Source of the DNA: Zhongshania aliphaticivorans
GTDB taxonomy: Bacteria; Pseudomonadota; Gammaproteobacteria; Pseudomonadales; Spongiibacteraceae
Length of the DNA: 64,000 bases
Direction of reading: 5' to 3'
Assembly (NCBI RefSeq): GCF_001586255.1
Contig: NZ_CP014544.1
Span: 2,201,501-2,265,500, forward strand
Within the stretch, counting starts at the first letter, position 1; each line of letters opens with the position of its first letter. The notes beneath the pieces are model-generated. The model was not told where the DNA came from, did not search any database, and worked only from the letters and a program-made list of their open reading frames with translations. Positions 3,376 to 58,683 of the stretch are shown piece by piece. The position numbers and the translations under genes were made by a program.

Positions 3376-6210
3376 TTAAAGCTTGAGTGCCTGAGTGATG
3401 AATTTTTCTTGTTGCGCCAAATGCAAAGCCATATAACCCGCTGCAGGCGACGCCGAAGGCTCTCGGCCAACATAGCCTAACAATAGGTTCTTTTCTGGCT
3501 TAAAGCTGCGAATTACCCGTGTCATACGATGGCGGCTGTTATACCACGCTCCTTGGTTACGGGGCTCTTCTTGGCACCAAACGACCTTTTTCAAGTTCGG
3601 GTACTGTGCAATCGCATTTCGCAAGTCATCGTAAGGGAACGGGTACACCTGCTCCAAGCGCACAATCGCAATAGAGTCTTTGCCGTGCTCCCGGCGCGCA
3701 GCACGTAAATCGTAATACACCTTACCACTGCACAATAACATGCGCGTGACTTTAGACTTATCGATGTCATCGGTCTCATCAATCACGTTTTGGAATTGAC
3801 CAGTAGTTAACTCTTCAAGTGTCGACACAGCCTCTTTATGTCGCAACAAACTCTTAGGCGACATCACCACCAAAGGCCGACGCAATGGGCGAATCGCCTG
3901 GCGTCGCAACATATGATAAACCTGCGCCGGCGTCGACGGCACGCAAACCTGAATATTGTGTTCTGCACACAACTGAAGGAAGCGTTCCAAACGCGCCGAA
4001 GAATGCTCAGGTCCCTGACCTTCGTAGCCGTGGGGCAACAACATTGTTAAGCCGCACAAACGGCCCCACTTGAGCTCACCACTGCTAATAAATTGGTCGA
4101 TAACAACTTGAGCGCCGTTGGCAAAATCACCGAACTGCGCCTCCCAAATAACCAGTGAGTCTGGCTGAGTAGTTGAATAACCATATTCAAAAGCAAGCAC
4201 GGCTTCTTCAGACAACAGCGAGTCAAATATAGAGAAGCTCGGTTGATCGGCGCTCATATTTTGCAGTGGCACGTAGCGACTACCGTCGTTTTGGCTGTGC
4301 AGCACGGCATGACGATGCGAGAACGTACCACGCCCAACGTCTTGGCCTGTCAAACGAACCTTATGCCCTTGTTTAAGCAAGGTGCCATAGGCGAGGACTT
4401 CAGCAAAGCCCCAGTTAATATCCATCGCGCCAACGGCCATCTTGCGGCGGTCTTCATATATCTTGGCTACCTGACGTTGCACCACGATACCTTCTGGGAC
4501 CGCGTTCACCGCTTCAGAAACTTCTTTCAGCAGCTTGGCGTCAATCGATGTATCGCCAGCCACATCCCAGGCATGGCCAAGGTATGGTGTCCAGTCGACA
4601 AACATTTCTGAGTTGGGCTGCATCACTAGGCTTTTTGCAACATGTTCGCCATTATCTAGCGCCTGGCGGTAATCGTCCGCCATTTTTTCTGCGAGAGCCT
4701 TGTCTATAATGCCTTCGTCGAGCAGCTTATTCACATACAGCTCGCGAGTCGTTTTCTGCTTGCTAATTTTGCTGTACATCAACGGCTGCGTACCGGACGG
4801 TTCATCCGCTTCGTTATGACCGCGACGACGGTAGCAAATCAAATCCACAACCACGTCTTTTTTAAATTCCTGGCGGTAGTCGGCAGCCATTTGGCTAACG
4901 AACAACACCGCTTCGGGATCGTCACCATTAACGTGGAAGATTGGCGCCTGCACCATTTTTGCCACATCAGTACAGTATTCTGTAGAGCGGGCATCTTCCT
5001 GTAGGCTGGTGGTAAAACCAACTTGGTTGTTAATAACAATGTGTACCGTACCGCCAGTTTTATATGCGCGGGTCTGGGACATTTGGAAGGTTTCCATGAC
5101 CACACCCTGACCGGCAAACGCCGCATCACCGTGTAATACAATGGGTACCACTTTGTCGCCAATGGGATCGTTGCGGCGATCTTGACGGGCCCGTACAGAG
5201 CCCTCTACTACCGGTGACACAATTTCCAAATGCGAGGGGTTAAATGCCAGCGCCAAATGCACTTCGCCACCCGGTGTCATCACATTAGATGAGAAACCCT
5301 GGTGATATTTAACGTCCGCAGAGCCTTGGTACTTAACCTTGCCTTCAAACTCGTCGAACAATTCCGCAGGGCTCTTGCCGAGAATATTTACCAAAAGATT
5401 AAGGCGGCCACGGTGAGCCATACCAATCACAATCTCTTTGGCGCCATAAGCACCGGCACGCTGGATCATCGCATCCATCATTGGAATTAAGCTTTCACCG
5501 CCTTCCAAACCGAAACGCTTAGTACCGGGATACTTAGAGCCTAAAGATTTTTCCAAGCCCTCTGCCGCGGTCAATCGCTCGAGCAAATGAGTACGGGTCT
5601 CGAGCCCGTATTGCGGCTGAGAGCGAACACTCTCCATGCGCTGTTGGATCCACGTGCGCTCACGGGTATCCACAATATGCATGAATTCAGTGCCCACCGA
5701 ACGGCAGTAGGTTGCCCGCAAGGAGTCGTAAATTTCACGTAGCGTTGCCTGGTCCTTACCAATGTAAAGACTACCGGTTTGAAAGACGGTATCAAAATCG
5801 GCTTCGCTTAACTGGTGATACTGCAATTCGAGATCCGGGACTCGGGGCCGCTGCCAGAGACCCAGAGGATCTAATTGGGCTTCCTGATGACCGCGCTGAC
5901 GATAGGCGCTGACCAACTGAATAACCCTAACCTGCTTGCGCTCGTGGTCACTAACTTCGTTATTGACTGCGCCATTGTAGCGAACAGGGGTCTTTGCTAA
6001 TTGCGCAAAATGATCGCGAATTGGCGAATGAGGGATATCGTGAGTTGTGTTTTCACTAACGCGGGGTAATTGTTGAAAATAGCTACGCCATTCATCAGAA
6101 ACAGCGTTTGGATCAGTGAGGAAGGCCTCATACAACTCTTCTACGTAAGTCGCATTTCCGCCGGATATATGGGAGCTTTTCCAGAGTAGCTCCATCGAAT
6201 TTTTCTGCAT
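3376..6210 (-). CDS. sucA: 2-oxoglutarate dehydrogenase E1 component
   Basis: Thiamine-diphosphate-dependent decarboxylase of the 2-oxoglutarate dehydrogenase complex (944 aa, normal length). The N-terminal LLWKSSHISGGNATYVEELY segment, the ThDP region around HGDAAFAGQGVVMETFQMS, the GRGTFSHRHAVLHSQ transketolase-like region and the C-terminal domain with the LLCSGKVYYDL motif are recognisable. The start is placed at the ATG giving MQKNSMELLWKSS, the conserved family start, instead of 45 nt upstream where the residues resemble no SucA. It heads sucA-sucB-lpd-sucC and lies 268 nt after sdhB, so it may be read through from the sdh promoter or have its own. Confidence 0.97.
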   Translation of the reverse strand: MQKNSMELLWKSSHISGGNATYVEELYEAFLTDPNAVSDEWRSYFQQLPRVSENTTHDIPHSPIRDHFAQLAKTPVRYNGAVNNEVSDHERKQVRVIQLVSAYRQRGHQEAQLDPLGLWQRPRVPDLELQYHQLSEADFDTVFQTGSLYIGKDQATLREIYDSLRATYCRSVGTEFMHIVDTRERTWIQQRMESVRSQPQYGLETRTHLLERLTAAEGLEKSLGSKYPGTKRFGLEGGESLIPMMDAMIQRAGAYGAKEIVIGMAHRGRLNLLVNILGKSPAELFDEFEGKVKYQGSADVKYHQGFSSNVMTPGGEVHLALAFNPSHLEIVSPVVEGSVRARQDRRNDPIGDKVVPIVLHGDAAFAGQGVVMETFQMSQTRAYKTGGTVHIVINNQVGFTTSLQEDARSTEYCTDVAKMVQAPIFHVNGDDPEAVLFVSQMAADYRQEFKKDVVVDLICYRRRGHNEADEPSGTQPLMYSKISKQKTTRELYVNKLLDEGIIDKALAEKMADDYRQALDNGEHVAKSLVMQPNSEMFVDWTPYLGHAWDVAGDTSIDAKLLKEVSEAVNAVPEGIVVQRQVAKIYEDRRKMAVGAMDINWGFAEVLAYGTLLKQGHKVRLTGQDVGRGTFSHRHAVLHSQNDGSRYVPLQNMSADQPSFSIFDSLLSEEAVLAFEYGYSTTQPDSLVIWEAQFGDFANGAQVVIDQFISSGELKWGRLCGLTMLLPHGYEGQGPEHSSARLERFLQLCAEHNIQVCVPSTPAQVYHMLRRQAIRPLRRPLVVMSPKSLLRHKEAVSTLEELTTGQFQNVIDETDDIDKSKVTRMLLCSGKVYYDLRAARREHGKDSIAIVRLEQVYPFPYDDLRNAIAQYPNLKKVVWCQEEPRNQGAWYNSRHRMTRVIRSFKPEKNLLLGYVGREPSASPAAGYMALHLAQQEKFITQALKL

Positions 6211-6471: not shown

Positions 6472-6478
6472 GGAATAC

Positions 6479-7195
6479 TTAAGTTGCTCTGCTTAGCAAC
6501 ATATTCCGAATGTGACCAATTGCCTTAGTTGGGTTCAAGCCCTTAGGACAAACGTTCACACAGTTCTGAATACCATGGCAGCGGAACACACTGAATGGAT
6601 CGTCGAGATCACTCAGGCGCTCTTCTGTTGCGGTGTCACGGCTGTCCGCCAAAAAGCGGTAAGCCTGCAGCAAGCCGCTGGGCCCGATAAAACGATCTGG
6701 GTTCCACCAGAATGACGGACAAGCGGTTGAGCAGCAAGCGCACAGGATGCACTCATATAAACCGTCAAGCTTGGCGCGCTCTTCTGGGGACTGCAGACGC
6801 TCAATAGCGGGCGCTGGCGTGTCATTCAGCAAGAAAGGCTTAATCTTTTCATATTGCTTGTAGAAAAGACTCATGTCGATAACGAGGTCGCGAATAACAG
6901 GCAGGCCTGGCAGCGGACGCAAAACCAGCTTATTGCCGCCTTTGCCGTTTTTCAGGGCTTCGGAAATTGGCGTAACGCAGGCCAAACCGTTTTTGCCATT
7001 GATATTCATACCATCTGAACCACACACGCCTTCACGGCATGAGCGGCGGTAAGCCAGCGACGGGTCGCTGCCTTTTAACAGTTCAAGAACATCCAATACC
7101 ATGAGGTCTTTGCCACCGGTATCCAGTTCGACTTCCTGCATGTACGGTTCCTGATCGACTTCAGGATTGTAACGATAGAGACTGACTTTCAACAT
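6479..7195 (-). CDS. sdhB: Succinate dehydrogenase iron-sulfur subunit
   Basis: Electron-transfer subunit of complex II (238 aa). Three cluster motifs are visible in order: 2Fe-2S (SCREGVCGSDGM plus the distal LAC), 4Fe-4S (CILCACCSTACPS) and 3Fe-4S (CHGIQNCVNVCPKGLNP). The start is the ATG at 7195, giving MLKVSLYRYNPEVD with AGGGGA upstream; an in-frame extension 26 codons longer has a basic sequence foreign to the family and overlaps sdhA. The gene lies 16 nt after sdhA and closes the sdhCDAB series before the suc genes. Confidence 0.97.
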   Translation of the reverse strand: MLKVSLYRYNPEVDQEPYMQEVELDTGGKDLMVLDVLELLKGSDPSLAYRRSCREGVCGSDGMNINGKNGLACVTPISEALKNGKGGNKLVLRPLPGLPVIRDLVIDMSLFYKQYEKIKPFLLNDTPAPAIERLQSPEERAKLDGLYECILCACCSTACPSFWWNPDRFIGPSGLLQAYRFLADSRDTATEERLSDLDDPFSVFRCHGIQNCVNVCPKGLNPTKAIGHIRNMLLSRAT

Positions 7196-10245: not shown

Positions 10246-11529
10246 ATGAGCGATAAGAAAGCAAGTCTGAGTATCGATGGTAAAACACTGGACCTTAAAG
10301 TCCACTCCGGCACCATCGGCCCCGACGTCATCGAAGTCAGCGCCCTGACGGGCAATGGTTACTTTACCTACGACCCCGGTTTTGTCTCTACCGCAGCCTG
10401 CGAGTCTAAAATCACCTATATCGACGGTGATAAAGGCATTCTTCTGCACGGCGGCTACCCCATTGAGGAACTGGCAGAGCAGTCTGACTACCTAGAAACC
10501 TGCTTCTTGTTACTGTACGGCGAGCTACCAAATGCCGATCAGAAAGAAGCGTTTTTCAATAAAGTCCGCATGCACACCATGGTCAATGACCAGATGAGCA
10601 CCTTTTTCAAAGGCTTCCGTCGCGACGCTCACCCCATGGCGATCATGTGTGGCGTAGTTGGCGCACTGTCTGCGTTCTACCACGACTCACTCGACATCAC
10701 TGACGAGAAACACCGCGAAATTTCTGCCATTCGCTTGATTGCAAAAATGCCAACCTTGGCGGCCATGACCTATAAATACACCATTGGTCAGCCTTTCATG
10801 TACCCGCAGAACCACCTGAGCTATTCAGAAAACTTCCTGCACATGATGTTCGGCAACCCCTGCGAGCCAAGCAATGTAAACCCTGTACTGGCCAAAGCAA
10901 TGGATAAAATCTTCTTATTGCACGCCGATCACGAGCAAAACGCATCTACTTCTACTGTGCGCCTCGCCGGCTCAACTGGCGCCAATCCTTTTGCCTGTAT
11001 TTCTGCGGGTATCGCTGCACTGTGGGGCCCTTCTCACGGCGGCGCCAACGAAGCCGTACTGGATATGCTCAACGAAATTGGCGATGCTTCGCGCATTGAC
11101 GAGTTCGTGGCAAGAGCTAAAGACAAAGACGACCCATTCCGCCTAATGGGCTTTGGTCACCGCGTTTACAAAAACTTTGACCCTCGCGCCAAGGTAATGA
11201 AAGTGGCCGCTGACGAAGTATTGGCTGAACTTGGCCTAGAAAATGACCCATTACTGAAAATTGCTAAACGCTTGGAGCAAATCGCACTGGAAGATGAGTA
11301 CTTCATTGAAAGAAAACTCTATCCAAACGTCGATTTCTACTCAGGCATTATCCTCAAGGCAATTGGCATCCCGACTAGCATGTTCACTGTAATCTTTGCT
11401 CTGGGCCGCACCCCAGGCTGGATTGCACACTGGAATGAAATGATCAGCGGTAGCTACCGCATCGGTCGTCCACGCCAGCTGTATACCGGCCCTGCCCAGC
11501 GCGATTTTGTCAGCCTAGAAAAGCGTTAA
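10246..11529 (+). CDS. gltA: Citrate synthase, hexameric type II
   Basis: Condenses oxaloacetate with acetyl-CoA at the entry of the TCA cycle (427 aa, typical of the NADH-sensitive gammaproteobacterial enzyme). Visible motifs are [11 protein letters not shown] (first catalytic His), [13 protein letters not shown] (second catalytic His), [15 protein letters not shown] and the catalytic Asp region NVDFYSGI. The start is supported by CAGGAG 10 nt upstream. It is divergent from sdhCDAB, the usual gammaproteobacterial arrangement, and ends in a strong palindromic terminator. Confidence 0.98.
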
Positions 11530-11545
11530 GCTAAATGAAAGTAAT

Positions 11546-11574
11546 AAAAAAGGTCGCCTAGGCGACCTTTTTTA
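11546..11574. terminator. Bidirectional terminator after gltA
   Basis: Perfect palindrome GGTCGCCTAGGCGACC flanked by A6 on the left and T6 on the right. It can end both the gltA transcript and the convergent lipoprotein transcript from 12012. Confidence 0.92.
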
Positions 11575-11601
11575 TTGCCTAAAATTCGGTAGCACAAGCT
11601 T

Positions 11602-51160: not shown

Positions 51161-52867
51161 TTAAAAGACTTTTTTCAGTACAACGTAAAAATCCGCCTCT
51201 AAGCGCTCCAACTCTGATGACGACACGAAGCCATCATCTGTCAGCGGCGTCGCGGCCACGGCATCCAGACTAACACCCCAACCTAAGTCAGCCGAAACAC
51301 GCACGCCAGCGTCGGCTATGCTTCGCTCATCGCCAGCTGAGCCCGACACATTCTCAAACCACGCCGCGCCGTATTCAGCAAACACCGCAGCACTCACGTC
51401 CATACCGGCAATATTCAATTTGCGCTGCAGACTTACATCAGCAAAATACCCAGAATCGCCCGACAATACTCCAGGCAAATAGGCGCTTATTGACTTCATA
51501 CCACCGAGCACCCACTGCTGCTGCTGCGGCAATTGCTCATCCGCGTATTGGGCAAAAAAGCTTGCATTCAGCTCTGTTTCTTTTGACAAGGGAAACTTGG
51601 CGGCAATCTTTGGCAAGACCGCAATAAATTCAGCGGTACGCGCCGCAGGCGTAACTTCTGGCGCCGACGCTGCACCGGGATTCTCAGCTAAATAACGCGC
51701 TCTAAAACTGTCATAACTACCAAGCGTGCCGCTGTCACCAGTAAGCCCGCCTTTAAGCGATAATTGCGCCGACCAGCGAAATTGTCCATCCCCCACGGTT
51801 TCCGCAGAGAAATACTTCGCCCCAAGCTCGAGGGTGGCGTAGCTCTCATCTTGCAAGCTGCCAAACCCACTAATATCAAGCGTGGAGTCGACATACTCAA
51901 GACGCTGAAATAAATTTATGCGATAGGAGAAGTCACTTGCCAGAACCTGCTCACCAGTTAACGCCAGCGCATTGATATCAGCATCTAAATCAATACTCTG
52001 TCCAGCGGTTGCGCCGGTCGTCGGCAGGCACAAGCCCAAGACAGAGAGCAGGTCACACACCACACCGCCACCAGGGGCGCTGGCACTACCAGCACGGTAG
52101 CCAAGATGCTGACTATACTCAGTGTGGCTTGCTGTGATGCCATACAAACCTGAAGAAAAGGGTTTGTCGGCGGTGAGCTGGAAGCGATGGTAATCCTCTC
52201 CTCCTCGAGACTCGCCCAAGTCGGTGAATGCCGTTTCATAGCCCAAGCCAACCCGACTGCCATTTGCGAAATTATGATTCATGCCGATGTCACCAAAATA
52301 TCGCCCGACATACCGGCTACCTTGGTTACCAAATTGCACAAAAAAATCAGTCGCGTCGTAATCTTCAACTGGAGCGGCCTCAAACAACAAACTTACTGCT
52401 TCTGGGTCATTGTCATCAACAAAGAACGTGGCTGAATAATTGATTCCTGTGCGCTGGCTTTTCACATTAGCCATCACGCGCGCGCGCTCAAACTCAGCGC
52501 GGGTTAAGTCTGGATCACCCTTTAAATCGCTGAAATATTCGGCAACGCCTTCACCGTCTATCGCAACCACTGACGCCTGTACCGCGTGAATATAGACGGT
52601 ACTCCCTTCTGGTGCATACTGGGTTAACACTAAAAGATGGCCCTTACGCAGGGTTAATGAATTCATTAAAAAAATTGCTTGGGAGGGCGTCTTGGCCGTC
52701 TCAAAAATAGCGGCCAACTCGGTCTCATTTAAATAATGACTCCCGGTTACCCGCAATTCGTACCCATTGACCAAGCCAATATACGGCGCACTTGCACCCG
52801 CCGTCGTGCTTATTTCGGCGACGGTAGTCAACTGCGGCGGTAAGGCTGGGGGAAAATCAATAGCCAT
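51161..52867 (-). CDS. POTRA and beta-barrel outer-membrane protein, TpsB/Omp85-like (copy 1)
   Basis: A 568-aa protein related to two-partner secretion transporters. After a Pro-rich start (FPPALPP) come one or two POTRA-like domains (about residues 33-105 and 110-165), then an alternating-strand barrel (about 170-568) ending in a terminal Phe (YVVLKKVF) as in outer-membrane porins. The late motif LGGMKSISAYLPGVLSGDSGY occupies the place of the LGG-SVRGY-gdrGY block of TpsB/Omp85, but the Arg-Gly is absent. No signal peptide is present, and an in-frame TAG lies two codons before the ATG; AAGGA precedes it. A loop holds a C-x8-C pair (Cys271, Cys280). It follows a repeat/OmpA-domain gene, probably its cargo or partner. 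A close paralogue lies at 55392-57104. Confidence 0.82.
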   Translation of the reverse strand: MAIDFPPALPPQLTTVAEISTTAGASAPYIGLVNGYELRVTGSHYLNETELAAIFETAKTPSQAIFLMNSLTLRKGHLLVLTQYAPEGSTVYIHAVQASVVAIDGEGVAEYFSDLKGDPDLTRAEFERARVMANVKSQRTGINYSATFFVDDNDPEAVSLLFEAAPVEDYDATDFFVQFGNQGSRYVGRYFGDIGMNHNFANGSRVGLGYETAFTDLGESRGGEDYHRFQLTADKPFSSGLYGITASHTEYSQHLGYRAGSASAPGGGVVCDLLSVLGLCLPTTGATAGQSIDLDADINALALTGEQVLASDFSYRINLFQRLEYVDSTLDISGFGSLQDESYATLELGAKYFSAETVGDGQFRWSAQLSLKGGLTGDSGTLGSYDSFRARYLAENPGAASAPEVTPAARTAEFIAVLPKIAAKFPLSKETELNASFFAQYADEQLPQQQQWVLGGMKSISAYLPGVLSGDSGYFADVSLQRKLNIAGMDVSAAVFAEYGAAWFENVSGSAGDERSIADAGVRVSADLGWGVSLDAVAATPLTDDGFVSSSELERLEADFYVVLKKVF

Positions 52868-52925
52868 AATCTAGTCCTTTAATATGCATTGAATAAGCTC
52901 GTTGTTAACGGTAAAGGCATAAGCT

Positions 52926-52966
52926 GTAGCAACAAGGAGCTCTTAAAGCTCCTTGCCCGTAGCTAC
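52926..52966 (-). other. Hairpin between module-1 genes
   Basis: Extended inverted repeat: inner CAAGGAGCT-CTTAA-AGCTCCTTG (9 bp), outer GTAGC/GCTAC, between the OmpA-repeat gene stop and the barrel-gene start. No U-run follows. The same position in module 2 holds a terminator-like hairpin, so differential expression of the two genes is likely. Confidence 0.65.
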
Positions 52967-52987
52967 CAACTTGCCTCGCGCTAACGA

Positions 52988-54658
52988 CTAATTTGTGAGG
53001 TTTTCTTCTTTGGTCAATTGAAAGGTTTCACCGTCGAGAATATTTAACTCGACCCGGCGGTTTTCAGCACGCCCCTCGGGGCTATCACTACCATCGTCAT
53101 TCGCATTGGGCGCGACAGGCGAGCTCTCACCGTAGCCTCGGAACGCTAAACGCTTTTCATCGATGCCAGCATCAATCAAGTATTTGTAAACCGTGTTCGC
53201 ACGACGATATGACAGACGAAGATTATAGGCATCGCTACCCATCCAGTCGGTATGTCCGTCTACCGCCACCAGCGCTTCTGGCTGAGCGGCCAAGACGCGC
53301 ACGGCGTGTTCTAATATGGGCAAAGACTCAGGCGTTAAATCTGCCTTGTCAAACTCAAAATTGACGCCCCGCAACACTAGCGGCGCATCCTCAGTTAAGT
53401 GACAACCCGTCAAAAACACAGGCATATTAGCCGGTGTATTCAGGCACTCATCACGCTCATCACAAACGCCGTCGGCATCACTGTCCTCACAGGCGTCCAG
53501 CATTGCAAGTTGCAGCGGGCCACCGCAAGCAAGGCCACCAGCACTGGCGCAGCTTCCGTCATTGCCGCCGCCATTATTACCATCGCTACCCGGTTCATTG
53601 GCCACGCCAACCGATATCAAACCACCAGAGCCCGATCCCGGACCATTCAATGCACCAACGCCAACTACGCCGCCATTACCTGAATTGGCGTCGTTTATCG
53701 CCGCGATCGTGATCGTCTCAGAGTTGCCCGAATTGGCACCATTCAATACCGCAATTGCGCCTAAATCAGCGTTTCCGGAGTTATCACCGTTTAATACCCC
53801 AATGCCTGCACTATCGCCGTTACCCGCATTATTCCCATTTAAAACGCCGACCCCAGCGGTGTCACCATTGCCTGAATTATTGCCATTTAATACGGCAATG
53901 CCCGCAGCGCCGCCATTACCAACATCGCTACCAGACAATACCCCTGCCGAAATCCCGTCGCTGTTTCCAGAGTTACTTCCCGACAGGGCGGCAAGCCCTA
54001 GAACGCCACCGTTGCCACTATTCGCACCACCCAAGATGCTAATACCAGCGTATTCGCCATTTCCGGAGTCACTACCAGACAATACGGCCACACCAATTGC
54101 GCCGCCATTACCACCGGAACCAGAATCAAGTAGCGACAAGCCCAAAAGGCTGTTCTCAGCGCCGTCGAGAACTAATCCCTCGCCCTGACCCAAGCCAGGA
54201 AGCTCAAACTCGGTCGGTATACTCTTGAGTAAATCGACCGCCGCATCAGTCACCATGCCATTCGGCCCGACTAAACTGCGAAGCTGCGTCGCCAAGCCCG
54301 CCTCATAAGTTAAACCTAACGTATTGAGTAACTGGGACAAACCCAAAGCATCGAGCGGAAGCATAGCCTCGCCGCCAGTTTTGTTGCCGGACCCAGCCAT
54401 CTCTTCAGAACCCATTGTCACACCGAGATCATTTTCTGGGTTGAGAACATCGGCGCCAAGAAAATCGTTATCGCCAGTGCCTACAGGGTCTAACACTGAG
54501 GCACCAATGGTACCGACCGTGGAGCCTACCTCCGAAAATAATTGCTGAAGGCCTAAACTATTGAGTAGATCCGTTAAACCATCTGCCGAGGCAATTGGCG
54601 CGAACATCATCATTGATATGATTAGCGGGACAGACAGCAGTCTGCGAATAGACTTCAT
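52988..54658 (-). CDS. Secreted 16-residue-repeat protein with OmpA C-terminal domain (copy 1)
   Basis: A 556-aa surface or periplasmic protein. In order it has a signal peptide (cleavage after ASA, residue 25), a leader region shared with its paralogue (SVLDPVGTGDNDFLG, VLNPEND), and twelve 16-residue repeats in perfect register (residues 173-364; consensus G-I/V-A/G-V-L-N/S-G-x-N-S-G-N-G). A Cys-rich segment with a thrombospondin-3-like Ca-binding motif (DSDADGVCDERDECLNTP, 391-408) follows, then an OmpA-family domain (430-541: NFEFDKADLTPES, VDGHTDWMGSDAYNLRLSYRRA, GRAENRRVEL) that should bind peptidoglycan. GGAG precedes the ATG. It lies directly upstream of a TpsB-like barrel gene, which is probably its partner. 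The family of the repeats is not recognised; adhesin, matrix or ice-interacting roles are guesses. Confidence 0.85.
   Translation of the reverse strand: MKSIRRLLSVPLIISMMMFAPIASADGLTDLLNSLGLQQLFSEVGSTVGTIGASVLDPVGTGDNDFLGADVLNPENDLGVTMGSEEMAGSGNKTGGEAMLPLDALGLSQLLNTLGLTYEAGLATQLRSLVGPNGMVTDAAVDLLKSIPTEFELPGLGQGEGLVLDGAENSLLGLSLLDSGSGGNGGAIGVAVLSGSDSGNGEYAGISILGGANSGNGGVLGLAALSGSNSGNSDGISAGVLSGSDVGNGGAAGIAVLNGNNSGNGDTAGVGVLNGNNAGNGDSAGIGVLNGDNSGNADLGAIAVLNGANSGNSETITIAAINDANSGNGGVVGVGALNGPGSGSGGLISVGVANEPGSDGNNGGGNDGSCASAGGLACGGPLQLAMLDACEDSDADGVCDERDECLNTPANMPVFLTGCHLTEDAPLVLRGVNFEFDKADLTPESLPILEHAVRVLAAQPEALVAVDGHTDWMGSDAYNLRLSYRRANTVYKYLIDAGIDEKRLAFRGYGESSPVAPNANDDGSDSPEGRAENRRVELNILDGETFQLTKEENLTN
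53567..54142 (-). repeat. Tandem 48-nt (16-residue) coding repeats, 12 units
   Basis: Codes for residues 173-364 of the copy-1 repeat protein. Every unit is exactly 16 residues (for example GIAVLNGNNSGNGDTA), with alternating small and aliphatic residues (G-I-A-V-L) and an Asn/Ser/Gly turn, a pattern expected of a beta-solenoid. The last unit is degenerate. The copy in the paralogue has eight units. Confidence 0.9.
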
Positions 54659-54909
54659 TTGGCAACTCCATTTGTAAAGAAAGTAGATAGCAATTCAGAA
54701 TGTGAAACTTTGGACATTTTCAAATGAACGCGGCGACTGCGCACTGCAAACCCCATCATCTCCCAGGACATTAGCAAAGTAGCTAAGTAGCGATTTTTTC
54801 TAGACAAGAAGGAATAGGACTTTGTAAAAACCTCATTACAAAACACAGCTTTAAAATACTTAGAGGGGTATTTAGCTGTACTTGACGCTGCTTCGCTTTC
54901 GAAAAACAT
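54655..54909 (-). CDS. Possible small protein upstream of repeat protein 1
   Basis: An 84-aa open frame with a good ribosome-binding site (GGAG, 10 nt before the ATG) whose stop overlaps the next gene's start (ATGA). The protein MFFESEAASSTAKYPSKYF is basic and rich in Ser, Phe and Lys; there is no signal peptide, membrane segment or family that I recognise. The paralogous module has no counterpart at this position. The overlap and ribosome-binding site suggest a real coupled gene or a leader peptide, but a chance frame in the long upstream region is equally possible. Confidence 0.35.
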   Translation of the reverse strand: MFFESEAASSTAKYPSKYFKAVFCNEVFTKSYSFLSRKNRYLATLLMSWEMMGFAVRSRRVHLKMSKVSHSELLSTFFTNGVAK

Positions 54910-55042
54910 AGGTACTCTCCGTGTAAGCAGAAACTTCTACTGCGGCATGAACGTCACTGTTCAATTCCCAATTCCAAAGATGACAATGCACAACCATTAG
55001 CAGGAAACTAATAAGTGGCACTGCATTAACATTAGGGAAAGT

Positions 55043-55066
55043 ATCTTAATGAAATTGTATTAAGAT
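55043..55066. promoter_or_regulatory. Operator-like palindrome upstream of module 1
   Basis: ATCTTAAT-GAAATTGT-ATTAAGAT, a perfect 8-bp inverted repeat with an 8-nt spacer, about 135 nt before the small frame and 385 nt before repeat gene 1. The length and symmetry fit a dimeric regulator site; no regulator is encoded nearby. Confidence 0.45.
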
Positions 55067-55348
55067 GGGAGAAAAAGTCATCTTTACACTCGTAATGATG
55101 CGATATATGAGAACAGCGTCACAGATATTTTTTTGGATATGAAGACAAAGTCACACTAAAAAAGATATGAGAAATAAATTTTTGCTATAAAATATTTTTG
55201 AGCATCAGCACCAAAAAACTCAAAATAGGTGGTAAGTATTTTATATGTAGCAGCACCTAGGCTGTAGCTCACACAAAATTACGATATACCGAGTAAGAAA
55301 AAGGGATGTTTAAATTTCGAGGGGAAAGAGAAAATAATATATTTCGAA

Positions 55349-55374
55349 TAACTGGCACGCGAACGCGCCAGTTA
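55349..55374 (-). terminator. Hairpin after the second barrel gene
   Basis: TAACTGG...CCAGTTA with an inner CGCG/CGCG stem, 18 nt beyond the stop codon on the minus strand. The following sequence is AT-rich but without a pure U-run, so it is a probable but not certain terminator of module 2. Confidence 0.6.
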
Positions 55375-55391
55375 CCATTGACAAGAAAAGA

Positions 55392-57104
55392 TTAGAATAT
55401 TTTCTTAACCGTAAAGAAAAAATCTGCTTCGAATGCATTCAGTGCGGACGAACTTGCAAAGCCGTCATCAGCCAAGGAGCGTGCAAATACGGTGTCCAAC
55501 TGCACGTCCCAACCCAAATCAGCACTAAATTTAACACCGGCATCCACAATACTACGGGTTTCACCCTCAAGACCTGAGGCATTTTCGAACCATGCTGCGC
55601 CGTACTCAACAAAGATTTCTGGCTCGACCTCAATACCGAGTACAGTAATCGTTTTAGCGTAATCTAACTTACCGTAGTAGCCAGAATCACCCGACAAAAC
55701 CCCTGGTAAATAGGCGCTAATTGATCCCATACCGCCCAGCACCCATTGCTGTTGCTGGGGCAATTGCTCATTGGCGAACTGGGCCATCGCATTCAGCCGT
55801 AAATTTCCACTATCAGCAAGCGGAAGCTTGGCCGTAAAGCGCGGCAATACGCTTACAAACTCCGCCGTTCGCGCCGCTGGCACCACCTGCGGCGTACTTG
55901 TCGCACCAGGGTTGTTGCTCAAATACTGAGTGCGATACCCAGGATAGGTCCCTAAGCTACCGCTATCGCCAGTTAATCCGGTTTTAACTGAAAGCTGAGC
56001 AGACCACCGCAAAGACTTTGGTCCACGCAGGTCAGCAGCAAAATACTTTGCACCAACTTCAAGGGTTGCGTACTTTTCGTCTTGTAAATTACCAAAAACA
56101 CCTACATCGATTTGTGAGTCGATGTAATCGATACGCTCGAACACATTTAGTCTTGAGCTTAAATCGCTGGCCAATACTTGTTCACCCGATATACCAAGCG
56201 TATTAATTTTGGCATCTAATCCCACTTTTTGGGTACTGGTCGTTGTGGTTGAGCTAGGACTGCACAAGCCGAGCATACCCAAAGCATCACAAATCGGATC
56301 TGAGCCCGACGCTGTCGTTGTTGAGCTCGTTGTACTGCCTAGATCTTGAGAATACTCAGTATGCCCCGCACTAATGCCGTACAAGCCCTGCGTAAATGGA
56401 CGATCTGCGGCTAACTGAATACGGTAGTAATCTTCGCCGCCGCGAGATTCGCCTAAATCGGTAAACGCTGTCTCTAAACTGCCGGTGGCGCGACTACCAT
56501 CTTTAAAATTATGACTGAGTCCAACATCGCCAAAATAACGTCCAACGTAACGACTACCTTGGTTGCCAAATTTCAACACCAAATCCGTGGCATCGTAGTC
56601 TTCACGGGGTTCACCAGAAAACACCATAACAACACGTTCAGGCGCATTTTCATCAACGACATAACTAACCGAATAATCAACTCCCGTGCGCTCACTGCGC
56701 ACGTTAGCCATCACTCTAGCGCGATCAAATTCACCGCGAGTTAGGTTTGGGTCATCTTTTAAGTCTGCAAAAAACGTGCTTATTTCGCCGCCCTTAAATC
56801 CCGTAACACGAGCCTGAAGAGCGTGAACATAAATAACATTACCCTCTGGCGCATACTGCATAGAAACCAGCATATGCCCTTTTCTAAGCGCGGCCGAACT
56901 CATCAGAAAAATCGCCTGTGATGGCGTTTTTGCCGATTTAAAAATCTTATCTAATTCATCGCGGCTCAATTGATGGGCGCCGGAAACGCGGACTTGGTAT
57001 CCATTCACCAAGCCCTGATAAACACTACCGGTACCTGCCCACTCAGCAATCTGCGCTACGCTCGCCTGTTGCGGAGGAAGCGCGGAAGGAAAATCAATTG
57101 CCAT
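55392..57104 (-). CDS. POTRA and beta-barrel outer-membrane protein, TpsB/Omp85-like (copy 2)
   Basis: A 570-aa paralogue of the protein at 51161-52867, with the same beginning (MAIDFPSALPPQ), POTRA-like part (about residues 33-165), barrel and terminal Phe (TVKKIF). The blocks QLPQQQQWVLGGM, SISAYLPGVLSGDSGY and EYGAAWFEN are identical or nearly so. It likewise lacks a signal peptide and the VRG[FY] Arg. The largest difference is a Ser/Thr-rich loop (about 257-292, SSTTTASGSDP and SPSSTTTTSTQ) around the conserved C-x8-C pair, a likely surface loop. The ATG at 57104 is chosen because it matches copy 1; a TTG 45 nt earlier adds a non-signal sequence. It follows repeat gene 2, from which a hairpin separates it. 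Confidence 0.82.
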   Translation of the reverse strand: MAIDFPSALPPQQASVAQIAEWAGTGSVYQGLVNGYQVRVSGAHQLSRDELDKIFKSAKTPSQAIFLMSSAALRKGHMLVSMQYAPEGNVIYVHALQARVTGFKGGEISTFFADLKDDPNLTRGEFDRARVMANVRSERTGVDYSVSYVVDENAPERVVMVFSGEPREDYDATDLVLKFGNQGSRYVGRYFGDVGLSHNFKDGSRATGSLETAFTDLGESRGGEDYYRIQLAADRPFTQGLYGISAGHTEYSQDLGSTTSSTTTASGSDPICDALGMLGLCSPSSTTTTSTQKVGLDAKINTLGISGEQVLASDLSSRLNVFERIDYIDSQIDVGVFGNLQDEKYATLEVGAKYFAADLRGPKSLRWSAQLSVKTGLTGDSGSLGTYPGYRTQYLSNNPGATSTPQVVPAARTAEFVSVLPRFTAKLPLADSGNLRLNAMAQFANEQLPQQQQWVLGGMGSISAYLPGVLSGDSGYYGKLDYAKTITVLGIEVEPEIFVEYGAAWFENASGLEGETRSIVDAGVKFSADLGWDVQLDTVFARSLADDGFASSSALNAFEADFFFTVKKIF

Positions 57105-57147
57105 ATCATCGTCTCTAAACAATAAAAGCCAAGGGAGACCACTCCCC

Positions 57148-57180
57148 AAAAAATGAGCGCTAGCCCTTACGCGCTAGCGC
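57148..57180 (-). terminator. Attenuator-like terminator inside module 2
   Basis: On the minus strand GCGCTAGC, 8-nt loop, GCTAGCGC, then TCATTTTTT, between repeat gene 2 and its barrel gene. A second small hairpin (GGGAG/CTCCC) follows. It looks like an intrinsic terminator that lets only part of transcription reach the barrel gene. Confidence 0.8.
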
Positions 57181-57189
57181 CGACACACC

Positions 57190-58683
57190 TCAACGCTGCG
57201 ACAAGTTTTCTTCTTTCACCGCTTCAAAAACATCGGGCTGCAGAACATTTAGTTCTACGCGACGGTTTTCTGCACGCCCTTCGGGATTATCGCTGCCGTC
57301 TTCGTTTGCGTTCGCCGCAACCGGAACACTTTCCCCATAGCCACGAAATACTAGGCGATTTTCCTTAATTCCAGCATCAACCAAATAGTGATAAACCGTT
57401 CTCGCACGCTTATATGACAAGCGAATATTGTAACTATCGCTGCCCATCCAATCAGTGTGGCCATCTACCGCCACCAGAAAATCAGGCTGTGCATTCAACA
57501 CTTTAACGGCCTGCTCCAAAATTGGATAAGATTCCGCGGTTAAGTCCCACTTATCAAATTCAAAATTAACGCCACGCAACACCAGCGGCGCATCCTCAGA
57601 CAAATGACAGCCCGTTAAAAATACCGGCATATCGGCGGGTGTATTTAAACACTCGTCTAACTCGTCGCACACACCGTCAAGATCAGCATCTTTACACGAA
57701 TCCAACAGCGCCAAAGCGCCGATATCACCGCAGCCCACGCCGCCTGACGCAGAGCAACTACCATTATTGCCCACTCCGCCGCTTTTACTATTTGGCCCGA
57801 GGGGCGCATTGGCAACGGCAAGCGTAATTAAACCACCAGAACCCGAGCCTGGGCCGTTTAAAACCCCTGCACCGACCACGCCGCCATTGGCGGAATTGGC
57901 GCCGTTTAAGATACCCACTGCAACGGTGCCCGAGTTCCCTGAATTGGCACCATTTAATACCGCGACACCAGCCAGCTCGGAATTACCGGAATTCGCCCCG
58001 CCAAGCACTGCAATACCGGCGCTATCGCCGTTGCCCGAGCCACTCCCAGAGAGCACCGCCACACCGGCACTACCACCGTTACCAGAGTTATCACCCGACA
58101 GAACCGCGATCCCAACCGCTTCGCCATTACCCGATGAACTAGCACCCAGAACCGCCAAACCCACGGGCTGATCACTCAATCCTGGCAGAGGCGCATTTGA
58201 ACCCACTGCCGTGCCGATTTGCCCAGCACCATCTTTAACACCCGCCGCCGCCGGTGCAGTAATTGATCCGTCTGGCCCGATAACGCCACGAATTCGTTCG
58301 GCACTACCACTTTCATAGCTTAAGCCGTATTCATTAGCTGCCTCAGAACCACCGAGCTCATCCAAGGGAATTGCCGTACCGGAGCCGGTCTTATTACCAA
58401 ATCCTGTCACCTCTTCTGAATTCGCGGTCAAGCCGAAATCATTCTCAGGGTTGAGCACATCAAGCCCCAGAAAATCGTTATCGCCGGTGCCGACGGGATC
58501 AAGCACCGAGCCGCCAACCGTACCTACCGATTTACCAAATTCGGAAAAGAGCCCTGAAAGCCCTAGCGAATTTAAAAAATCAGTCATTGCATCAGCCTTG
58601 GCCACATTTGCTGTTAACAGCATAGGGGCTATTAACAACGCACTCACCAGCACAGCTACTAGATACCGACGAACAGATCTCAT
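57190..58683 (-). CDS. Secreted 16-residue-repeat protein with OmpA C-terminal domain (copy 2)
   Basis: A 497-aa paralogue of the protein at 52988-54658. It has a signal peptide (cleavage near AKA, residue 30), the shared leader (SVLDPVGTGDNDFLG, DVLNPENDFG), eight 16-residue repeats (residues 175-302), the Cys-rich thrombospondin-3-like segment (DADLDGVCDELDECLNTP) and the OmpA domain (about 370-481, VDGHTDWMGSDSYNIRLSYKRA). The ATG at 58683 has GGAG upstream; six extra in-frame residues are rejected. The C-terminal half is far more conserved between copies than the repeats. It heads module 2, with its barrel partner 85 nt downstream. Confidence 0.85.
   Translation of the reverse strand: MRSVRRYLVAVLVSALLIAPMLLTANVAKADAMTDFLNSLGLSGLFSEFGKSVGTVGGSVLDPVGTGDNDFLGLDVLNPENDFGLTANSEEVTGFGNKTGSGTAIPLDELGGSEAANEYGLSYESGSAERIRGVIGPDGSITAPAAAGVKDGAGQIGTAVGSNAPLPGLSDQPVGLAVLGASSSGNGEAVGIAVLSGDNSGNGGSAGVAVLSGSGSGNGDSAGIAVLGGANSGNSELAGVAVLNGANSGNSGTVAVGILNGANSANGGVVGAGVLNGPGSGSGGLITLAVANAPLGPNSKSGGVGNNGSCSASGGVGCGDIGALALLDSCKDADLDGVCDELDECLNTPADMPVFLTGCHLSEDAPLVLRGVNFEFDKWDLTAESYPILEQAVKVLNAQPDFLVAVDGHTDWMGSDSYNIRLSYKRARTVYHYLVDAGIKENRLVFRGYGESVPVAANANEDGSDNPEGRAENRRVELNVLQPDVFEAVKEENLSQR
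57778..58161 (-). repeat. Tandem 48-nt (16-residue) coding repeats, 8 units
   Basis: Codes for residues 175-302 of the copy-2 repeat protein, in the same 16-residue register as copy 1 (for example GIAVLSGDNSGNGGSA). The last two units (GAGVLNGPGSGSGGLI and the next) match the last two of copy 1 closely, so they form a conserved cap, while the internal number differs by four. Confidence 0.9.

Follow-up and report, generated by a model that had tools for sequence, protein, structure and literature searches.

Two A–B gene pairs in the window

We analyzed a stretch of 64,000 nucleotides from Zhongshania aliphaticivorans (contig NZ_CP014544.1, positions 2,201,501 to 2,265,500), here referred to as the window, whose own numbering is used below. 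It carries two copies of a gene pair. The first gene, here named A, encodes a protein with an N-terminal signal and a C-terminal OmpA domain. The second, here named B, encodes a barrel protein of the TpsB type known from two-partner secretion (TPS) and is the main subject of this study, as it lacks the signal peptide and the lid lock of TpsB proteins. All four genes lie on the minus strand. With identities of 53% between A1 and A2 and 60% between B1 and B2, the duplication described in a sequence-only reading of this DNA was confirmed.

The gene B1 (55392..57104) encodes a two-POTRA, Omp85-type barrel protein without signal peptide; its ATG sits within a longer open reading frame (ORF) that opens at TTG in the ORF list. 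The N-terminal motif MAIDFPSALPPQ (57069..57104) was placed at the initiator Met by the start pattern and its conservation among homologues, and in loop L6 (55677..55736) the alignment showed GGMGSISAYLPGVLSGD replacing the VRGY-type motif. B2 (51161..52867) is built like B1 according to the ORF list and Pfam. It carries the N-terminal motif MAIDFPPALPPQ (52832..52867, ORF list), GGMKSISAYLPGVLSGD in the aligned loop L6 (51446..51505) and an in-frame TAG two codons 5' of its ATG. Both copies matched ShlB (PF03865; E 5.7e-7 for B1 and 3.4e-7 for B2), and the structure model predicts two POTRA domains and an Omp85 barrel of the TpsB fold, in line with the POTRA/TpsB-like barrel of the sequence-only reading. 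A PDB sequence search with the B profile gave nothing at E<=1; the fold comparison did match. The modelled N-terminus of B appears ordered, with residues 1-20 at predicted local distance difference test scores (pLDDT) of 83 and 93 by blocks.

The gene A1 (57190..58683), whose ATG likewise lies within a longer TTG-opened ORF, encodes a hydrophobic N-terminal signal, a head, 16-residue repeats, a thrombospondin-3 (TSP3)-like Cys/Asp motif and the OmpA domain. A2 (52988..54658) is built in the same way as judged from the ORF list, Pfam and the structure model. The repeat regions span 57811..58170 in A1 and 53600..54148 in A2. Lag-16 self-identity reached 0.57 in A1 (z 13.0) and 0.47 in A2 (z 12.6), with highest values over all lags and 500 shuffles of 0.28 and 0.25, respectively, so that the predicted 16-residue period holds. 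Since Tandem Repeats Finder gave no DNA-level tandem array at these repeats, the repetition is one of the protein. In the A2 model strands recur every 16 residues, with 12 of them in residues 172-352, at pLDDT 79-90 over residues 171-330 and then 65 and 62. A fold for the repeat region from the PDB was dropped; the listed PDB matches fall on the OmpA part.

The OmpA peptidoglycan-binding domain (PF00691), expected from the earlier reading, was located at 57295..57564 in A1 (E 9e-19, 68.1 bits) and at 53090..53359 in A2 (E 1.7e-19, 70.4 bits), over the cut-off of 27.2 in both copies. At E<=1, Pfam gave no further family for A2 and only a sub-threshold domain of unknown function for A1. Neither a barrel family nor a TPS domain (PF05860), the latter already noted as missing, was among these matches, and the head of A did not resolve into a fold in the model. 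A TPS screen in 19 relatives gave no match and is weak, because control genomes gave no signal either. The proposed Cys-rich, Ca-binding segment stood in part: the Cys/Asp motif is TSP3-like by pattern in 72 of 73 A proteins, but A1 and A2 have no Pfam TSP_3 match.

Start site and lid lock of the B proteins

Two sets of B proteins were compared. Database searches listed 173 proteins, comprising the best 120 of 149 matches and 53 additional proteins from the 89 matches of a second search, where the lowest identity to the first query was 25% among the matches listed. Furthermore, 78 B ORFs were fetched and read with their flanks, some of which were clipped by contig ends. These are 73 copies from the family of Z. 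aliphaticivorans (home family), four distant places and one locus that occurs twice (Spongiibacter pelagi, L007 and L067). Family groups are here numbered f1 (Zhongshania/Spongiibacter/Litorivivens, taken from protein names), f87, f115 and f182.

The start M-[APSV]-[ILTV]-[DE]-[LFM] was present in 168 of the 173 listed homologues. Three more fit a looser form, namely P0234 (MAIDIPP), P0271 (MPVAFPPALPPQ) and P0274 (MAIALPAP); the remaining two are a longer gene call that contains the motif internally (P0033) and a fragment (P0230). In the home family the start reads M-A-I-D-[L/F]-P-P-x-x-P-P. The fetched ORFs began with MAID (74), MPID (2) or, in f87, MPVV/MPVA (2). Starts of f87 and f182 members, read by eye only, were MPVVVADVPPEAP, MPVAVADVPPEAP, MSALPPPSPS, MFAMTVPPPAS and MFLPLLDPA. 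The mean frequency of the commonest residue in 70 aligned rows was 0.85 at positions 1-12, ranking 12th of 559 windows, and 0.38 at positions 13-33. A DNA pattern for M-A-I-D-[L/F]-P hit five sites in the genome, which are the five B starts, and none in the control.

A start misread by annotation, or a signal peptide lost by frameshift or encoded separately, would make B an ordinary signal-bearing TpsB. We consider this hardly tenable, even though studied TpsBs are exported by means of a signal peptide and an out-of-frame hydrophobic ORF does reach the B start at 3 of 76 loci (f87 omitted, L007 and L067 both counted). An in-frame stop was found 0-33 codons 5' of the B Met at all 76 loci. In 14 disjoint close pairs, substitutions at codon positions 1, 2 and 3 numbered 70, 33 and 418 from the ATG on, but 68, 68 and 64 in the 60 nt before it, without third-position bias. 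Indels upstream of the ATG were not multiples of three in 7 of 10 cases, and a Shine-Dalgarno-like core preceded B at 70 of 75 loci compared with 70 of 750 control windows. Because of these upstream stops, substitution patterns and Shine-Dalgarno-like cores, together with the rarity of out-of-frame hydrophobic ORFs, we regard the B Met as the true start and reject a misannotated or frameshifted one. Gaps between A and B go down to 16 nt, and their lengths modulo three are spread 24/21/29, so that no fixed A–B frame exists; a read-through fusion was rejected as well.

Hydropathy agrees with the lack of a TpsB-type N-terminal Sec signal peptide in B and is weaker evidence than the start-site tests. 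Within the first 45 residues one B protein, at 2.29, overlapped the range of A (minimum 1.72). Among the B windows, the six with the highest values have their first residue at 27-33; no window that opens at residues 1-15 exceeded 1.31. Hitch-hiking of B on A through the twin-arginine translocation (Tat) route was raised by the SVRR and SIRR starts of A1 and A2 and then dropped, because the A proteins of L007-L010 have no twin Arg by eye.

The second departure concerns the lid lock. According to passages of two reports on Omp85 proteins, an Arg–Asp pair links the L6 motif (V/I)RG(Y/F) to the motif (F/G)xDxG of strand 13 (PMC4490367, PMC5422565), and a passage of the latter describes the L6 motif as essential for FhaC activity (PMC5422565). 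Neither hallmark was found in B. None of the 78 fetched proteins has Arg at the L6 place (S 63, A 5, N 5, H 2, M 2, G 1), and all 78 have Glu at the strand-13 Asp place. The 175 listed rows, which are the 173 proteins plus B1 and B2 of the window (near-copies of two of them), carry S 145, A 14, H 7, R 3 and others 6 at the former place and E 173 and D 2 at the latter. The three Arg-bearing rows read RAF or RAY at L6, and a VRGH string near residue 345 of two B proteins lies outside this loop. Five canonical TpsBs (L049, L050, L051, L129 and L130), picked by similarity from partial-barrel matches, served as a small outgroup. All five kept R and D and showed a hydrophobic stretch after an upstream start codon. 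In a tree of 32 rows a fully supported branch splits 27 clade rows from these five.

We recognised no description of signal-peptide-less TpsB/Omp85 barrels or of an OmpA-paired TpsB in searches of the openly licensed PMC literature (CC0, CC BY, CC BY-SA). The main text of a superfamily survey from 2014, which distinguishes ten subfamilies, does not mention OmpA (PMC4104836).

Two features of B nevertheless point to export. Of 171 listed proteins, 153 end in F, Y or W (the two incomplete rows P0087 and P0230 were omitted from this and the cysteine counts); such an end is typical of substrates of the barrel assembly machinery (BAM). Cysteines number 0 in 25 and 2 in 143 proteins, together 168 of 171, and 287 of 293 fall in one loop (258-290 of B1). 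After clustering at 60%, 48 of 49 representatives have an even count. As far as sequence can tell, this pairing is consistent with disulphide formation in an oxidising environment. The possibility that B stays in the cytoplasm as a dead or moonlighting protein, which its missing signal peptide might suggest, is therefore very improbable in our view. It is also at odds with the 73 copies in 21 genomes, which carry no internal stop and show strong third-position bias.

Recurrence of the pair and its link to two-partner secretion

The B profile matched in all 21 home-family genomes, and the five B genes of the Z. aliphaticivorans genome are its only PF03865 matches at E<=0.01. An OmpA-domain ORF, called by a profile from four A proteins, lies 5' of B on the same strand at a gap of 16-209 nt in 74 of the 78 fetched loci (73 of 77 distinct ones; 72 of 73 family copies). 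This neighbourhood survey supports the assumption of the sequence-only reading that the two genes belong together. The genome of Z. aliphaticivorans has 15 OmpA-domain places, five of them beside B.

The four B genes without such an ORF are L052, where the contig ends, L120, and L122 and L123 of f87. In L120, a home-family locus, a Gly/Leu/Ser-rich low-complexity secreted protein without OmpA match (4724-5503, minus strand) was seen upstream of a divergent B (MAIDMLPAMQP). The order in f87 is B, a low-complexity secreted protein and a barrel-plus-OmpA protein; in f115 (L121) a low-complexity secreted protein and an OmpA-domain protein, barrel-like in its N-terminal half by eye, precede B. The A–B pair of L010 is flanked by low-complexity secreted proteins at 10278-11591 (437 aa) and 6472-7017 (181 aa, LPGLP-type repeats), both on the minus strand, which are possible extra cargo. 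A low-complexity secreted gene as a general third part is not claimed; the filter was passed at only 8 of 77 loci.

Beyond the home family, full or near-full relatives of B were confined to two genomes of f115, two of f87 and one of f182. Here, 369 genomes of the class and 390 of the order were searched with the B profile (E<=1e-10), and 398 of the phylum with a profile from four distant members (E<=1e-12). The other 13 matches, 3 from the class and 10 from the order sample, cover only part of the barrel. In 147 f182 genomes three carriers were found, counting the one from the phylum sample.

In one of these (G934) the clade member (MSALPPPSPS at its start, GGWNSLSAWLPG at L6) lies about 160 nt upstream of a gene for an 829-residue protein. 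The latter matched the filamentous haemagglutinin N-terminal domain TIGR01901 with 38.2 bits (cut-off 29.1), and PF05860 with 26.7 bits, under the cut-off of 33.5. A tblastn search with this cargo recovered a protein of 72% identity at the corresponding position beside B in the second carrier (G1174); the contig of the third (G1134) stops some 140 nt past B. An adjacent TpsA with a TPS domain was thus found in distant f182 members, whereas A1 and A2 of the window have no such domain. These neighbours make the clade a branch of TPS and not a separate system. In one lineage it probably retains a role in secretion, and this makes it more likely that B acts on A. The sequence-only reading had suggested a distinct system. 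Of this the OmpA-domain partner stands, but the clade is not cut off from TPS. That reading also missed the absent signal peptide, the loss of the lid lock and the link to haemagglutinin-type cargo.

Display or tether

Our best reading is that B is a new Omp85/TpsB variant with a peptidoglycan-anchored passenger as partner. In full it describes B as a member of a deep TpsB-like Omp85 clade without signal peptide, with the lid-lock Arg and Asp replaced and a conserved N-terminus (MAIDLPPxxPP in the home family), whose partner A is displayed while fixed to the wall. We hold it tentatively, as close to an even prospect. Sequence and prediction show the pairing, the start codon, the motif changes, the repeat period and a fold model; for the inner-membrane route of B and the transport of A we infer the following steps. 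A, with its N-terminal signal, variable and often repetitive head, Ca-binding-like linker and OmpA domain, would be exported by Sec. OmpA domains bind peptidoglycan, and that of A is expected to grip it. B would reach the periplasm without a cleavable signal, possibly using its conserved N-terminus, and its C-terminal beta-signal would bring it to BAM for insertion. The POTRA domains may then engage A, and the head might be threaded into or through the barrel with the OmpA domain still on the peptidoglycan. A would thereby bridge barrel and wall, and the resulting structure, fixed to the wall, would extend to the outer membrane or to the cell surface. Less probable is a reading in which MAIDLPPxxPP acts as a novel export signal, or marks an unrecognised inner-membrane route to periplasm and BAM, in building a split, peptidoglycan-anchored, type V-like display.

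Several points weigh against display. The loss of the L6 motif speaks against an ordinary TpsB transport cycle, because the motif is reportedly essential in FhaC, and the absence of a signal peptide in B is deduced from start-site tests and hydropathy. The head of A was modelled at pLDDT 29-52. Additionally, at least four types of A head were distinguished, with hhalign probabilities of at most 13.3%, except for one pair at 91.9%; with so little detectable similarity no common secretion signal is apparent. Only for type IV and the mixed group was shared homology of the heads supported.

The chief rival, which we consider less likely, is that B transports nothing and is a repurposed Omp85 barrel anchoring A in the outer membrane, with A tying the barrel to the peptidoglycan. 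The loss of the lid-lock pair in every fetched B would suit such a tether, as would the many short A ORFs (about 260-375 aa), which hold little beyond the TSP3-like linker and the OmpA domain. However, the POTRA domains are kept in the B model, A heads can be very long (1618 aa) and repetitive like those of secreted passengers, and haemagglutinin-type cargo genes adjoin two f182 members. The longest example is the A partner of L008 in the Z. aliphaticivorans genome (L008:3577-8433), in which many near-identical units of about 90-100 residues, seen by eye, precede the OmpA domain.

Compared with the type Vb transporters FhaC and CdiB, B differs in its missing signal peptide, in its replaced L6 Arg and beta-13 Asp and in its partner, an OmpA-domain protein without detected TPS domain. 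The stretch before the POTRA match is only 33 residues long in B; in FhaC this part comprises helix H1 (residues 1-32) and a linker. A resembles OmpA/OprF in its C-terminal OmpA domain and TSP3-like linker, and the OmpA-domain gene of the f87 cluster even has an N-terminal barrel domain (PF13505), with a similar picture by eye in f115; the A proteins of the window, however, carry a repeat head, and no N-terminal 8-strand barrel was found. The linker and OmpA region of A also matched TraB of the TraA/TraB outer-membrane exchange system with 102 bits, but this falls well short of the family cut-off of 700, and the match is limited to positions 350-500 of 522. In inverse autotransporters (type Ve, intimin), a single assembly unites the grip on peptidoglycan with a barrel and a passenger. 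Their likeness to A–B is by idea only; A–B is split over two genes, uses an Omp85 barrel and has its anchor at the C-terminus instead of the N-terminus.

To our knowledge, a Sec signal peptide directs proteobacterial outer-membrane barrels into the periplasm, and a single lid lock is common to Omp85 proteins. The home-family B copies break both rules, yet keep the fold, mostly the loop cysteine pair and the BAM-type end. They are natural material to probe the function of the lid lock and barrel export without signal peptide. With its nearly constant pairing to a peptidoglycan-anchored protein, B forms a system of two genes compact enough for reconstruction in a laboratory strain.

Minor features were observed between the genes. 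The A1-B1 gap (57105..57189, minus strand) contains stem-loops (fold z -3.22 against 200 dinucleotide shuffles) and the A2-B2 gap (52868..52987, minus strand) a stem-loop (z -4.54). They might control the A:B ratio. Among 49 A–B gaps of at least 45 nt, 26 contain a stem of 8 or more pairs and only 11 beat the shuffles at 0.05. The spacer between B1 and A2 (54660-55391) comprises about 730 bases without an ORF of at least 120 aa; by eye it is AT-rich and carries an inverted repeat near 55190-55260.

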